This document shows, one piece after another, positions 20,837 to 26,481 of a stretch of 32,509 bases of DNA. The first letter of the stretch is position 1. Every line of letters starts with the position of its first letter. Location: NCBI GenBank assembly GCA_028711365.1, contig JAQTSI010000013.1:1-32509 (forward strand), read 5' to 3'. Both the position numbers and the translations under genes were made by a program. Source of the stretch: Methylococcaceae bacterium (GTDB lineage: Bacteria; Pseudomonadota; Gammaproteobacteria; Methylococcales; Methylococcaceae). The notes under the pieces were generated by a model. That model had not been told where the DNA came from. It saw nothing but the letters and a program-made list of their open reading frames with translations, and made no database searches.

Positions 20837-22639
20837 TCAATGCCGGGTCGAAACGGGCACGAGTTTCTTGATGAGCCCAGTGTCGAGATATTTGCCGGAA
20901 TCATCCCGGGGCGCCGGAACGCCGAGGGTATTGCCCATCACATAAATTTCGCCATTGGCATCCTGGGCGAAACCAAAAATCGAGAAACCCAGCGGGGCGT
21001 CGTCGGCCAGCCTCAACTCGGTGATGGTGCGCAGGGATGGTGAGCGGCCCTTGAGGTTGATATGGAACACTCGTCCACTGGCGTTGGGAGTTGCGAACGC
21101 CTTGACGTAATCCCCGAAAATGTACTGTCCCCTGAGCGCGGGAATGCGGTTGCCCGCATAGGCGAAACCACCGACGATGGCGATGCCTTCATCGTGGTCG
21201 TATTCCGCGATCGGGTCGATCAGTCCCGCGGTCGGCACGTTCAGGCAATTTTGGTTGCTGACGAATCCGGTACCGGAACCATCGCTGCCATTGGGCTGGA
21301 AGAAGAACGTGCCTTCCTTGTAGCGCCAGCCGTAGTTGCCGCCCTTTTTCACCAGATCCACTTCCTCGACCCTGTTTTGACCCACGTCCGCCGCCAGCAG
21401 GTTGCCGGTTTTGTCGAAAGAAAAGCGGAACGGATTACGGAATCCATAGGCCCAGATTTCATCGCAAACGCCGTCGGCACAACCGGCATCGCCTCCCCGG
21501 CTGTTCCTGGCAGCAAAAGGATTCGAGCGGGGGATGCCATACTGGCCATTGACCGAACCGGTGCGGTTTGGATCGATGCGTAGGATCTTGCCCAATACGG
21601 TGCCGCGATCCTGGCCGTTGCCGACGAGCGGGTCATGGCCGCCGATCTTATCCTGGTCGTTGGCGTTTCCTCCATCTCCTACCGCGATATATAGCAGGCC
21701 ATCCGGGCCGAAGTTCAGTGCGCCGCCGTTATGATTCAATTCGGGATGGTCGATGCGCATCAATGCCCGACGGCTGCCCGAAATGGTGGGCGGAAAAACG
21801 CGGGGGTTATCCACCCGCCACTCGGAAATCACAGCGCGGTTATTCGGTATCGTCCCCGAAAGCAGATCATGCAGCGGAAAATCCGTCGGGACGTTCGGAT
21901 CTACCGGTTCCGAGGTGAAGGTATAGAGCAAGCCGTTACGCCGGTAGTTGGGATGAAACGCCAAGCCGAGCAATCCGCGCTCGTCATAACCGGGAAGGGC
22001 AGCAATCTCTTTGCCGAGATCAGTCACCAGCAGTTGGGAGACGTCCAATATCGGGTTTTTGGAACCATCGGCCAGATTGATCGCCCATAATTTTCCTACC
22101 GTGTCGGTCACATACAAGTGCTTCTTGTCGCCCGGGGCTGTCACTCCCCCGTTCGGTGAGACCAAGCCCTGGCCAGGCGAGATAAGATCCTGCAATGCGA
22201 CTTTGGCGACCGGATCTTTGGTGATGGCCGCGGGAATGGGGTTCACATTGACCGGGTCCGTATCCGAACAGGATGATGGAGGCGGGGGCGTTGCCTCCAC
22301 GATGACCTTGCCGGTCATGCCCAGCGTGCAATGCAGGCTGCAGAAATACGGAAAGCTCCCTGCTTCATTGAACGTGAAGGACAGGGTGGCTGGGGCGTTC
22401 CTGATACCGGAATCGAATTTCCCGTCCGGGGTGCATGAAGCCCCGGAAGTCACGGTGTGAGGGCTACCTTTCCAGGTCCAGTGGACGGTATCGCCGACCT
22501 TGATGTGGACGGTCTCCTGATCGAAGGAATTGTTTTTCACCTCGACTTCGACCGTACCCGCCATCAGATCGGTGACCATGGAGCAGGAAACGACGAGGCT
22601 GGCCAGAGCCAGCTTGTGCAAATCAATAAGTGCGGACAT
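20837..22639 (-). CDS. Secreted cupredoxin-glucose/sorbosone dehydrogenase fusion
   Basis: 600 aa, predicted periplasmic. ATG 22639 has GAGGA 8 nt upstream and gives a signal-like N-terminus (about 1-28). Residues 29-115 form a plastocyanin/pseudoazurin-like cupredoxin with a full type-1 copper set: H61 (SPHTV), C100, H103 and M108 in YFCSLHCTLGMTG. A Pro-rich linker (117-121) leads to a PQQ-type glucose/sorbosone dehydrogenase beta-propeller (about 150-595), with GLLGLAFHPNY, ELNHNGGALNFGPDGLLYIAVGDGG, WAYGFRNPFRFSFD, DVGQNRVEEVD and GGNYGW. Inference: the propeller oxidises a sugar or alcohol and passes electrons to the fused copper domain. The substrate and the presence of PQQ are not shown by sequence. 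Confidence 0.88.
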   Translation of the reverse strand: MSALIDLHKLALASLVVSCSMVTDLMAGTVEVEVKNNSFDQETVHIKVGDTVHWTWKGSPHTVTSGASCTPDGKFDSGIRNAPATLSFTFNEAGSFPYFCSLHCTLGMTGKVIVEATPPPPSSCSDTDPVNVNPIPAAITKDPVAKVALQDLISPGQGLVSPNGGVTAPGDKKHLYVTDTVGKLWAINLADGSKNPILDVSQLLVTDLGKEIAALPGYDERGLLGLAFHPNYRRNGLLYTFTSEPVDPNVPTDFPLHDLLSGTIPNNRAVISEWRVDNPRVFPPTISGSRRALMRIDHPELNHNGGALNFGPDGLLYIAVGDGGNANDQDKIGGHDPLVGNGQDRGTVLGKILRIDPNRTGSVNGQYGIPRSNPFAARNSRGGDAGCADGVCDEIWAYGFRNPFRFSFDKTGNLLAADVGQNRVEEVDLVKKGGNYGWRYKEGTFFFQPNGSDGSGTGFVSNQNCLNVPTAGLIDPIAEYDHDEGIAIVGGFAYAGNRIPALRGQYIFGDYVKAFATPNASGRVFHINLKGRSPSLRTITELRLADDAPLGFSIFGFAQDANGEIYVMGNTLGVPAPRDDSGKYLDTGLIKKLVPVSTRH

Positions 22640-22821
22640 ATGCGCTTTCCTCAGTGAGTTCGTGGGGCTTCCTCGATTGACAGGTTCCCTCAGGATCAGC
22701 AAGCCATGTGAGTACTATTTTCCATCGGCAAATGATTGGTTCCTGAAAAGCGACAAAAGGTTCATGGCTCCGTTTGCGGGAGTAGGTCGGGAAGTTTCCG
22801 AGAGGGGGCGAATGCAGGCTG

Positions 22822-24141
22822 TTAGAGATTGGGAGCGGCGAGCTTGGGCTCGGTTTTGGCATCCGCCAGACAGCCAGGCGTGCCATTCACTCGAGAGACG
22901 GCGCTACAGGCGTCAACACTCCTGAAAGGCTGGTCAGGGGTGGGGCGATGAAGGGAGGCGAGCAGGATTGCGGCCATTTGCTCGGAGCTCAGCGTCGGCC
23001 TCAGTTCGAGCAACAATGCGGCCAAGCCCGAAACATGGGCCGCCGCGAAGGAACTGCCGGACATGAAATTGTAGCTGGCATGGGGCAGGGTGGTCAGGAT
23101 TTCCTGACCCGGGGCCGAGATGACCGGTTCACGAGGGGAATCCTGGCTTTCTTCATGGGCGGATCGGACGGCAATGACCCGCTTCATGGAGGCGGGGAAA
23201 TTCTCGTTCGGCTTGGTTTTGGACGGGACGGAGGCGATAACGATGACGCCTTCGTCCAGGGCCTTGTCGATCAGCCGCTCCAGCAGGGGATCATGGGGAC
23301 CTGCGAGGCTGAGGTTGACGATCCCCGGTTTCAGCTTGATCGCGGCATTCAAGGCCAGGGCGAGGGTAAAGCTGTTGCAGGCGGCATCCGATTTTTGCGC
23401 CGCGATTTGCCAGCAGGCTTTCAGGGCCAGGAGCTTGGCGTCCGGAGCAATGCCGACGATGCCTTGGCGGTTGTTGGCGGAGGCGGCGATGATTCCGGCC
23501 ACGGCGGTGCCATGGATATCCTCGGCGGTTTCCGGGAAGTCGGCCACGAAATTTTCGGCCAGGGCTACCTGGCCGACGATATCGGGATGATGGGCATCCA
23601 CTCCCGTATCGATCACAGCCACCCGGACATTGCGTCCGGTGGCCATCCGGTGCGCCGATTCGATGTGCATGTCGCGCATATCGCTTTGGAGCCTGTAATA
23701 AGGGTCGCTATAAGTCTGGCCCATGGCGCGGAACTGCTGCATGAGCTGGACCGACTCCACCCTCGGGTCTTGCCGCAACCGGTTGATGACGAGTTCCAGC
23801 GGCTGTTCCATGGGCGCCCAGTAAACCACGCAATGGATAGCCAGGGTATCGATAGGCCACTGTGCGACGGGCGCCATGCCATAATCCCGGGCCAGGCTCT
23901 CCGCTACCTGACGGCTCCAGCTCGTGTTTCCATAACCGCCCCGTTGCCGGTAAGCATTGACCGGATCGGCAATGGGGGGCCGATTTTCGCGTTCATCCTT
24001 GAACGTGACCAATAGTTTATGGTTTCCATGGGCATCGGTCAGGGTCTGTTTGGCTGGGGCACAGGAAACCAAAGCGCAGAGCAAGCCAGCCGACAAGATT
24101 AGCCAGGCCATCGTCTTCCATCGCGAAATGGCGATTTTCAT
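22822..24141 (-). CDS. S8 subtilase-family serine peptidase, lipoprotein
   Basis: 439 aa. The N-terminus has the lipobox ALVSC with C27, so an outer-membrane lipoprotein facing the periplasm is likely. Residues about 95-140 (LAIHCVVYW, LELVINRLRQDPRVESVQLM) look like a subtilase propeptide/inhibitor fold. The catalytic domain has D178 (AVIDTGVD), H210 (DIHGTAVAGI) and S364 (MSGSSFAAAHVSG). Where subtilases have the oxyanion Asn (AAGN), this protein reads VIVIASVPSKTKPNENFPAS, with no Asn at the aligned place. It overlaps the anti-sigma gene by ATGA, so the two are co-translated. Activity is uncertain. Confidence 0.92.
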   Translation of the reverse strand: MKIAISRWKTMAWLILSAGLLCALVSCAPAKQTLTDAHGNHKLLVTFKDERENRPPIADPVNAYRQRGGYGNTSWSRQVAESLARDYGMAPVAQWPIDTLAIHCVVYWAPMEQPLELVINRLRQDPRVESVQLMQQFRAMGQTYSDPYYRLQSDMRDMHIESAHRMATGRNVRVAVIDTGVDAHHPDIVGQVALAENFVADFPETAEDIHGTAVAGIIAASANNRQGIVGIAPDAKLLALKACWQIAAQKSDAACNSFTLALALNAAIKLKPGIVNLSLAGPHDPLLERLIDKALDEGVIVIASVPSKTKPNENFPASMKRVIAVRSAHEESQDSPREPVISAPGQEILTTLPHASYNFMSGSSFAAAHVSGLAALLLELRPTLSSEQMAAILLASLHRPTPDQPFRSVDACSAVSRVNGTPGCLADAKTEPKLAAPNL

Positions 24142-24836
24142 CGATTTGTCCGGGGTAGAGCCGGTTCGGCAAACACGACGGCTTCGTGCTCTCTCAGGGT
24201 CTCCAGAGCCCGGGATAGGGCCGGCCCGAAGTCTCCAGCCTCGATTCGGACCGTGTAAACCCCTTTAGCGGAAGGCCCGTCCACGATCCGGGCATGCAGG
24301 GATTCCAGCAGCCGGGCAATCGGCTGCTTGGGCGATTCAGGGTTGAAGATCACGCGCAAATCGTTTGCGGCGAAGGTATCCAGGCTGCCGGGATTGGCAA
24401 CCGTGTGGTAGTTTTGGCCAAAGCCGGATGGCGTATCTTGACCAACCAGGACCAAGGCGATGGCCGACAATCCGCAGGCCAAGGCCAGGCGGGGCGGCGT
24501 CATCAGCTTTGGCAGCGAGGCCAGCCAGCCAGCTTCCATGATGCTGGCCGGCGCGAACCGGCGTTTGGGCTGTCTGGCCGGGGGTTTTTCGGCCTGAATC
24601 CGCGCCATCAAGCGGTCGAAGGAAGGTTTGGCCGATATTTCGAGTATGGATTCATGTTTCAGGATATTCGCCAGGGTTTCCTGGGCGGATGCCTCCTTGC
24701 GGCAGATCAGGCAAATCCGCAGATGGGCTTTGACCATGGCGAGCTTCTCGGTTTCCAGGCTGCCGTTGACGTACCAGGGCAGCAGCGGCCACACTTCGTT
24801 ATGGGTGACATAAGGTGAGGAGTCGTGAGTTTTCAT
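24138..24836 (-). CDS. Transmembrane zinc-finger anti-sigma factor with a propeptide-like periplasmic domain
   Basis: 232 aa. The cytosolic N-terminus has the anti-sigma zinc motif H38-x3-C42-x2-C45 (AHLRICLICRKE), which would hold the ECF sigma factor encoded just upstream. One membrane segment follows at about 116-132 (RLALACGLSAIALVLVG). The periplasmic part, about 158-228, has the order strand-helix-strand-helix-strand (LRVIFNP, IARLLESLHARIVDGP, VYTVRIE, ALSRALETLREHEA, VVFAEPA). Its ending resembles subtilase propeptides, which commonly close with a L-R-x-x-x-x-V-x-x-A-E-P pattern. It overlaps both neighbours by 4 nt. The anti-sigma call is strong; the propeptide likeness is by eye. Confidence 0.88.
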   Translation of the reverse strand: MKTHDSSPYVTHNEVWPLLPWYVNGSLETEKLAMVKAHLRICLICRKEASAQETLANILKHESILEISAKPSFDRLMARIQAEKPPARQPKRRFAPASIMEAGWLASLPKLMTPPRLALACGLSAIALVLVGQDTPSGFGQNYHTVANPGSLDTFAANDLRVIFNPESPKQPIARLLESLHARIVDGPSAKGVYTVRIEAGDFGPALSRALETLREHEAVVFAEPALPRTNR

Positions 24837-25459
24837 GATGGCTGGCCTAGTGGGGAGTCGCCCGATCCTTCGGCCAGGTCGGGAAACAAGGCTTGAATTT
24901 TCTTGCGGGCATGGAATATCCGCGTTTTAACGGTATTTTCCGGACAATCCATGATGGTGGCGATCTCCTTGTAATGGAGCCCATGGTAGTAGGTCAATTC
25001 CAAGACGGCCCTTTGCTCCGCCGGCAGGTGGCTGAAAGCGACCGAAATCCAGTCTTCGATTTCCAGGTTTTTCAATCCGCTATCCTGGACTCCTGGAAGC
25101 TGGATATCCGCCTCCTCGATATTCAGATGTTCTGCGCGGGGCCTTTCAGCGAGGGATTTCAGACATTTTTTATAGGCGATACCGAAAATCCAGGTTGATG
25201 GAACGGTTTCCTGCCGCCAGGTGGATGCCTTTTTCCATACGACATACAGGGCATCGTTGATGATTTCCTCGGTCTGATCGAAGCGGCGAGTGATCCGGTA
25301 GGCAAAACGGAAAAGCCGCTGATAATAGCGACGATATAACTGTTCGAAGGCACGATGGTCGGACTCACAGATCAGCGCGATCAATTCGGCGTCACTGGCG
25401 TCGCCGGCAGAGGCCTGGGGCATGGAGTTGTACACTCGCTGGGTGGGTTTATCGCGCAT
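24833..25459 (-). CDS. ECF-type RNA polymerase sigma factor
   Basis: 208 aa. Region 2 runs from about residue 25 to 90 (DAELIALICESDHRAFEQLYRRYYQRLFRFAYRI, then FDQTEEIINDALYVVWKKA). Region 4 is LPAEQRAVLELTYYHGLHYKEIATIMDCPENTVKTRIFHARKKIQ (about 150-195), with no region 3, as in ECF sigmas. ATG 25459 is chosen; a TTG at 25486 or ATG at 25423 is possible since none has a strong ribosome site. First gene of the sigma/anti-sigma/peptidase operon. Upstream on the minus strand a TATAAAT (25587-25581) could be a -10 with a poor -35. Regulon unknown. Confidence 0.92.
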   Translation of the reverse strand: MRDKPTQRVYNSMPQASAGDASDAELIALICESDHRAFEQLYRRYYQRLFRFAYRITRRFDQTEEIINDALYVVWKKASTWRQETVPSTWIFGIAYKKCLKSLAERPRAEHLNIEEADIQLPGVQDSGLKNLEIEDWISVAFSHLPAEQRAVLELTYYHGLHYKEIATIMDCPENTVKTRIFHARKKIQALFPDLAEGSGDSPLGQPS

Positions 25460-25725
25460 CGCGGCAGGTTCCGTGGCTGGAGGCAAGGCTTCATCTCGCC
25501 ATCAACATTTACAGCATGTCTTGATCGGTTAATCCTGGGATTTTGCGATTAGGTTCAAAGTGCAACAAAATTTTCAGTGAATTTATACCGGATCATTCAT
25601 CAATCGATCGGCATAGGGTGTAGGTATTCGATTTATATGCCGTTTCTTGTGAGGGGCCAGGGCGGCCAGCCGTCCCGAATAGAACGATCTTCCGTCCGTT
25701 GACGAGGGCTTCACGAAGGATCGGG

Positions 25726-26427
25726 TTAGAACCCAATCGTCAACGAAAAAACATAGCGATGCTTGAGCTCGGGGAGTCTCAGTCCGTCATAGCCGAGAGG
25801 GGAGTCGGCGGCATCGACATAGCGCAGATCCAGCGCCCCATATTTGAAAAACCAGCTCAGCCCGACATTCCAATACAGCCAATCATATTCGAGCATGGGG
25901 TTCGACTGGTTGTAACCCAGTCCTAAGGAAGCGCTCAGGTTCCTGCTCAAGGGATAGCGGCCTGAAATTTCGTAATTCGCGGTGCTTCCTCCCCGGTTGT
26001 AGGCGTCATCGGCAAGATCGACCCGGGCGCTGATGAGGTCGCCGTAATGCAGGGCGACGCTGTACTCGTTGTAATCCGATGGTTTGCCAAATAGCCTTCC
26101 ATCGTAGAGATAGCGCGCCACGGATGCCTCGATCCGCCAACGATCGGAAAGCGGATGGCAGTAGCCGAGGTAAGGGTAAAACTCGGTGTTCGACCGGTCG
26201 GAATATCCTCTGTCCTCGAAATCCACTCGCGAAATCCACATCCCACCGTAAAAACCCGAGCGGTGTTCATAATCGACGTTGACTCGAACGGTCGGGGTGT
26301 TGCCGCTTTTTGAATATCCTCGGTAAAAATAATTGCTTGACCCGATGACGAGCGCGCTGAAGTCTTCGGCCCGCAGCGATGGAGGGAGGCAGAGGACCGC
26401 CAGAAGACAGGCAGGAAAAACTCGCAT
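25726..26427 (-). CDS. TorF-like putative outer-membrane porin (Gcw_chp family)
   Basis: 233 aa with a signal peptide MRVFPACLLAVLCLPPSLRA before EDFSAL. SSNYFYRGYSKSGNTPTVRVNVDYEHRSGFYGGMWISRVDF is the hallmark of the TIGR02001/Gcw_chp (TorF) family. Alternating aromatic strands and a terminal Phe (SLTIGF) fit an outer-membrane beta-barrel. The substrate is unknown. The start has no clear Shine-Dalgarno. It is 160 nt downstream of ftsH on the same strand, behind the overlapping hairpins at 26482-26514. Confidence 0.85.
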   Translation of the reverse strand: MRVFPACLLAVLCLPPSLRAEDFSALVIGSSNYFYRGYSKSGNTPTVRVNVDYEHRSGFYGGMWISRVDFEDRGYSDRSNTEFYPYLGYCHPLSDRWRIEASVARYLYDGRLFGKPSDYNEYSVALHYGDLISARVDLADDAYNRGGSTANYEISGRYPLSRNLSASLGLGYNQSNPMLEYDWLYWNVGLSWFFKYGALDLRYVDAADSPLGYDGLRLPELKHRYVFSLTIGF

Positions 26428-26481
26428 GGGCGAAAATTGGTCGATGAACCTTTTGGCCGGGTTTGGGAATGAATGCCAGGA

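Follow-up and report, generated by a model that had tools for sequence, protein, structure and literature searches.

We report a gene module in which a membrane-bound anti-sigma factor carries, as its periplasmic C-terminal domain (CTD), a domain that is by its sequence homologous to the prodomains of subtilases, and in which the gene for this anti-sigma factor lies beside that of a subtilase of the S8 family. The module comes from a stretch of 32,509 nucleotides of a Methylococcaceae bacterium (contig JAQTSI010000013.1 of assembly GCA_028711365.1), the whole of which we call the window, and it comprises an extracytoplasmic function (ECF) sigma factor, a class I zinc anti-sigma factor (ZAS) and an S8 peptidase homologue. 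Its components, the prodomain included, are of known kinds, and the gene cluster that they form is widespread and apparently undescribed. We propose, with a confidence that is evenly balanced between belief and doubt, that the CTD binds the S8 protein at the face that receives prodomains, and that the S8 protein in this way gates the release of the sigma factor.

The three genes lie on the minus strand and are joined by two overlaps, at 24833-24836 and 24138-24141, that read TCAT on the plus strand and ATGA on the minus strand; the coordinates and the Pfam matches confirm the trio as given in a preliminary description of the window. The sigma factor gene (24833-25459) encodes 208 amino acids from an ATG, an alternative TTG start at 25486 being possible, and its product matches Sigma70_r4_2 (9.7e-18) and r2 (9e-10). 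The anti-sigma factor (232 amino acids, 24138-24836) matches zf-HC2 at 1.8e-4 (22.0 bits against a cut-off of 22.2) and contains the zinc motif H38-x3-C42-x2-C45, of which H38 and C42 are invariant, and C45 is kept in at least 90%, among 56 homologues. This Hx3Cx2C motif, a single transmembrane helix (residues 116-132, 24441-24491), predicted from the AlphaFold2 (AF2) model and the hydrophobic sequence, and the position beside an ECF sigma gene place the protein among the ZAS factors. The CTD covers residues 158-228 (24153-24365), and the protein ends in VVFAEPALPRTNR. The third gene (22822-24141) encodes the S8 protein (Peptidase_S8, 2.6e-36), which was taken at first for a lipoprotein; the window's protein does have the lipobox LVSC27, but among 54 homologues no more than 31 look like lipoproteins.

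The link between the CTD and subtilase prodomains is visible through Pfam, through the fold and through a reverse profile search. Taken alone, the CTD of the window matches one Pfam family, PF22148 (Fervidolysin_NPro-like), at E 0.11 and 13.3 bits, where the cut-off is 21 bits. Among 57 homologous CTDs the same family is matched by 52 at E<=1, with a best value of 8.6e-7, and any other family by at most three; at E<=1e-3 it is matched by 22 of the 57, and no other family is matched at all. In the reverse direction, a profile made of anti-sigma CTDs only found, in genome scans, prodomains that precede ordinary S8 catalytic domains (E 7e-5 to 2e-3), one of which ends in VEFAEPNYRR. The AF2 model of the CTD, with a predicted local distance difference test (pLDDT) score mostly above 87, has strands at residues 159-164, 182-186, 193-198 and 220-225 and helices at 170-179 and 203-216, and this order, beta-alpha-beta-beta-alpha-beta, is that of subtilase prodomains. 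The preliminary description was thus right in reading the domain as propeptide-like, though its strand-helix-strand-helix-strand order was one strand short.

The top rows of a fold search (VIA) were the PC1/3 prodomain, at Z 8.2, and the BPN' prosegment, at Z 8.1, and prodomain rows spanned Z 7-8.2. Generic ferredoxin-like folds (ribosomal protein S6-like, ACT and NikR, at Z about 7) score nearly as high, and the prodomain assignment is therefore carried by the sequence evidence. Neither phmmer with the anti-sigma factor nor hmmsearch with the CTD profile against PDB sequences returned a prodomain, and the alignment of the CTD with the S8 protein's own prodomain by hhalign (prob 48, E 1.8e-4) points to a more distant kinship.

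Gene linkage provides the other main line of evidence. Among 151 relatives, 53 genomes hold homologues of the anti-sigma factor, most of them full-length, and an S8 gene adjoins the anti-sigma gene in 54 of the 60 loci that were read. The other six are three loci with broken anti-sigma genes (L058, L087 and L089), L070, L091, which has no neighbouring S8 gene, and a paralogue on contig C352 of the window's own genome. At L070 (4063-4923, minus strand) a response-regulator receiver domain is joined to a membrane helix and a prodomain-like CTD, which places the domain on another kind of regulator, and on contig C352 (L086:3600-5340) a second pair of sigma factor and CTD-bearing anti-sigma factor is found with the S8 gene reduced to an N-terminal remnant of 48 residues. 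As a control, zf-HC2 loci of the relatives were taken regardless of the CTD and S8 genes were counted within 1.5 kb: they are present at 12 of 13 loci with a CTD and at none of 17 without one (Fisher 1.5e-7, a figure that is only indicative, the loci being related). An anti-sigma factor with this domain is nearly always found beside an S8 gene, as the account in the preliminary description requires.

Beyond the order, CTD matches occur in 26 of 369 genomes of the class and in 24 of 398 genomes of the phylum, a few of them inside S8 proteins. Of the 39 distant loci with a sigma factor and a CTD, 30 have an S8 gene nearby, in varying order and orientation, and two more are cut off by the end of their contig. 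A further set of 34 named loci was gathered with the S8 alignment, the anti-sigma alignment having given no usable pattern, and in these, found as they were through S8, the gene again stands beside a CTD-bearing anti-sigma gene. They belong to Methylococcaceae, Nitrosomonas, Duganella, Janthinobacterium, Undibacterium, Sulfitobacter, Sphingopyxis and Methylobacterium and to metagenome-assembled genomes (MAGs) labelled Acidobacteriota and Desulfobulbaceae. The module recurs across the Pseudomonadota and in a few MAGs of other phyla. At one locus (L208:3142-3597, plus strand) an S8 gene whose product has a prodomain of its own is immediately preceded by a stand-alone prodomain-like open reading frame of 151 residues.

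The S8 protein of the window likewise has its own prodomain, as had been suspected from its sequence: the AF2 model places it at residues 42-139 (23725-24018), from a strand at 42-48 to one at 130-133, ahead of a catalytic domain that was delimited by alignment to subtilisins (residues 146-420, 22882-23706), and the best matches of the model are pro-subtilisins across residues 38-420 (Z 39.8). The triad Asp178/His210/Ser364 is kept in 54 of 54 near homologues, but the oxyanion-hole asparagine (Asn155 of subtilisin) is lost in this kind of S8 protein, with Ser307 in its place in the window (23221-23223) and asparagine in only one of the 54. The canonical oxyanion motif is found in 2 of 92 proteins of the window's kind, against all 19 examined of a distant kind that has a long N-terminus and the motif with G-N. 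In human PC1/3 the change N309K, at the same position, slowed the removal of the prodomain, which still took place, and abolished activity on other substrates (PMC4182778). By analogy, we predict that S8 proteins of the window's kind process themselves but act poorly on other proteins. PC2 naturally has aspartate at the oxyanion position and yet is active, so that this deduction from the loss of the asparagine is not strict. The loss speaks for a receptor-like role of the window's kind, and the intact site of the other kind leaves cutting possible. The first prodomain-binding helix (residues 257-270) shows conservation on a level with that of the active-site helices (0.78, the mean being 0.62), which fits either the protein's own prodomain or the CTD as its binder. 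The S8 protein's own prodomain has a cysteine, Cys104 (23830-23832), that all 54 homologues share; Cys243 and Cys255 are likewise invariant in the window's kind, and one of the three cysteines may be unpaired. A redox-switch subtilisin has been described in SUB1 of Plasmodium (PMC4024747).

A fourth gene, at 25726-26427 (minus strand), is a conserved neighbour in modules of the window's kind and encodes an outer-membrane-type protein of the Gcw_chp family (PF09694, 5.4e-18). Of 54 near loci, 40 have such a gene, in most cases as the next one upstream of the sigma gene and on the same strand; it also occurs in 24 of the 34 named loci and in 10 of 39 distant loci, all ten with the window's kind of S8 protein. 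Our own reading of the sequences is that Gcw_chp proteins are probably small outer-membrane barrels; a literature search found no paper naming the family.

Between this gene and the sigma gene, at 25531-25558 (minus strand), lies a promoter-like motif (TTGAACC...AGGATT). In the form TTGAACCTT-N13-GGAATA, or in summary TGAACC-N15-GGAAT, it stands upstream of the sigma gene, scoring 9 or more out of 11, in 44 of 54 loci, and the sigma promoter is apparently autoregulated. In ten genomes of the order the motif was found 22 times, against three for a reversed control. Ten of the sites are the sigma promoters, and others precede proteins with tails like VPLP...RKR sorting signals (L337, L339, L341, L344 and L346), a glycosyltransferase (L331, L334 and L342) or a glucose/sorbosone dehydrogenase (L345). 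The strict motif has exactly two sites in the window's genome assembly, both within the window, where 0.01 would be expected by chance. One is an exact copy, TGAACCTTTT-N11-GGAAC (22739-22764, minus strand), upstream of the gene for a secreted protein (20837-22702, minus strand) with glucose/sorbosone dehydrogenase (PF07995, 1.4e-26) and plastocyanin-like (PF00127, 4.6e-9) domains, which is a candidate target of the sigma factor. The second, at 26445-26470 (plus strand), between the Gcw_chp gene and ftsH, points at no obvious gene.

A looser scan of the same genome gave 31 sites, against four for the reversed control. Six related genomes, of which five share the window's genus and one its family, showed no excess of the strict pattern (20 sites, against 29 for the reversed control), which leaves the regulon weakly supported there; several of these strict sites precede PEP-CTERM or dehydrogenase proteins. 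Exosortase occurs in 16 of 23 genomes of the class with the module and in 109 of 346 without it (Fisher 3e-4, not corrected for kinship). A regulon of secreted proteins, some of them with PEP-CTERM or VPLP-CTERM signals, is suggested by these sequences as a lead and not as a result.

The most economical account of these elements, as we infer it, is the following. The zinc domain of the anti-sigma factor would hold the sigma factor at the inner membrane, with the prodomain-like CTD facing the periplasm, and the CTD would dock on two surface helices of the S8 protein, the usual seat of subtilase prodomains. Two aspects of the S8 protein's state, the presence or loss of its own prodomain and any engagement with another partner, such as the Gcw_chp protein, would decide if the docking site is free, and thereby if the anti-sigma factor keeps hold of the sigma factor or becomes open to regulated proteolysis. 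An S8 protein of the window's kind would serve chiefly as a receptor and less as a free protease, and the freed sigma factor would drive transcription of the operon that encodes it and of a few genes for secreted or surface proteins. The pairing of the CTD with two different kinds of S8 protein is as expected of a shared docking mode, and trans-acting inhibitors of a propeptide-like kind are known from protozoa, SUB1-ProM being a stand-alone prodomain-like protein that inhibits a subtilase encoded nearby (PMC6993865).

How tightly the CTD might dock can be judged to some extent from its end. In propeptides the residues that follow a conserved glutamate fill the active site of the protease. In subtilase prodomains the glutamate at P9 caps a helix of the protease (PMC4024747), and this helix-capping residue is kept in 51 of 57 CTDs, the corresponding position being glutamine in 52 of 54 of the S8 proteins' own prodomains. 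Because the glutamate is kept but the tail is variable, the CTD looks, from its sequence, more like a docking domain than like a canonical tight inhibitor, for which a conserved C-terminal tail filling the active site would be expected and is not seen. The idea that the anti-sigma factor ends exactly at P1 fits the window, with eight residues after the glutamate, and fails for the family.

Several observations weigh against docking as we propose it. The tails of the 57 CTDs have no conserved P4-P1 residues, and their length after the glutamate ranges from 3 to 17. A comparison of distance correlations by domain gave a difference between CTD-S8 and zinc-domain-S8 of 0.047 (95% interval -0.063 to 0.160), in the expected direction and not significant. 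The S8 protein's own prodomain would compete with the CTD for the same face. Three genomes of one family, f99 (L177, L178 and L179), have the sigma factor and CTD-bearing anti-sigma factor flanked by housekeeping genes and lack a peptidase gene in the vicinity, and at two distant loci (L194:4219-5616, plus strand, and L209:3150-4007, minus strand) a caspase-like Peptidase_C14 gene takes the place of S8 after the sigma and anti-sigma genes, the CTD match there being weak. The trans-acting propeptide of the preliminary description, through which the anti-sigma factor was to bind the peptidase, accordingly survives in part: prodomain homology and S8 linkage favour it, and the unconserved tail and the lost oxyanion asparagine weaken its tight-binding version.

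Other accounts of the same genes have to be weighed. The S8 protein could be a dedicated site-1 protease with the CTD as its docking handle, a signal leading to a periplasmic cut in the anti-sigma factor and then to intramembrane cleavage, much as with DegS and RseA. ECF anti-sigma factors are commonly freed by regulated proteolysis (PMC8103513), and both the triad kept in every near homologue and the canonical oxyanion motif of the distant kind agree with such a role; yet the asparagine is lost from the window's kind, a change of the sort that abolished trans activity in PC1/3 (PMC4182778), and no conserved sequence resembling a cleavage site was seen in the CTD tail. We consider this account unlikely, and the plain suggestion of the preliminary description that the peptidase cuts the anti-sigma factor is weakened by the same loss. 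That the CTD is a prodomain-derived sensor of something else, such as misfolded protein, an outer-membrane part or a small ligand, with no S8 contact and S8 linked by co-regulation only, would suit its common ferredoxin-like fold, the f99 loci without S8, the receiver-domain protein of L070 and the two loci with caspase-like genes. It accords poorly with a linkage that holds across very different S8 kinds and gene orders and with the absence of S8 beside every zf-HC2 locus that lacks the CTD, and we hold it to be slightly less likely still.

The flow might also run in reverse, the CTD serving as a second chaperone or inhibitor that keeps the S8 protein inactive at the inner membrane until the sigma factor is released, so that the S8 protein is output and not sensor. 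Prodomains do fold and inhibit subtilases, a propeptide-like inhibitor is encoded beside subtilase genes elsewhere (PMC6993865), and the S8 gene belongs to the sigma operon, whose promoter is apparently autoregulated; the S8 protein has, however, a complete prodomain of its own, and the inhibitory tail is unconserved in the CTD, which makes this the most improbable of the accounts considered. Once docked, the S8 protein may cut the anti-sigma factor or shield it, or may itself be held inactive.

Should the proposed docking prove correct, a protease prodomain would have become a sensor in gene regulation, and a transcription factor would directly read how far a subtilase has matured or whether it is occupied. 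The docking would account for the widespread cluster, would point to a role for Gcw_chp proteins and for subtilases that lack the oxyanion asparagine, and would set an ECF route beside the known one, in which sigma-54 and PrsK/PrsR control PEP-CTERM surface proteins (PMC1569441). A bolder version, which we put forward as doubtful though worth stating, is a four-part receptor across the envelope, in which a self-processing S8 protein without trans activity, beside a Gcw_chp protein, would be read by the anti-sigma factor through a borrowed prodomain, the sigma factor controlling surface proteins sorted by exosortase (PEP/VPLP-CTERM). The cluster suggests a so far undescribed signal route across the cell envelope. 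A literature search found no paper on an anti-sigma factor with a subtilase prodomain, though the ECF classification may tabulate the neighbourhood, perhaps not the domain.

Among known systems, the module resembles RseA/DegS in its single-pass anti-sigma factor with a periplasmic sensing domain, encoded beside an ECF sigma factor, and in the involvement of a serine protease. It differs in that the protease is of the S8 family and not of the HtrA/PDZ type, is encoded in the operon and, in the window's kind, lacks the oxyanion asparagine, and in that the anti-sigma domain is a prodomain homologue. With SUB1-ProM of Plasmodium, MIC5 of Toxoplasma and POIA1 it shares a prodomain-fold protein apart from its protease, with the helix-capping glutamate kept here, and SUB1-ProM is likewise encoded beside subtilase genes (PMC6993865); in contrast to these, the domain here belongs to an anti-sigma factor that spans the membrane, and its C-terminus lacks a conserved inhibitory tail. 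The class I (ASDI/ZAS) factors ChrR, RsiW and RslA have the same Hx3Cx2C zinc domain, ChrR being matched weakly by sequence and RslA by the model. To our knowledge, the C-terminal or extracytoplasmic parts of these three are not prodomain homologues. The ECF54 group, finally, also has an ECF sigma factor with a subtilase gene, and a CHAT or carboxypeptidase gene, in its context, but it has been proposed to work without an anti-sigma factor (PMC8999054), whereas the present module centres on an anti-sigma factor that bears a prodomain-like domain.

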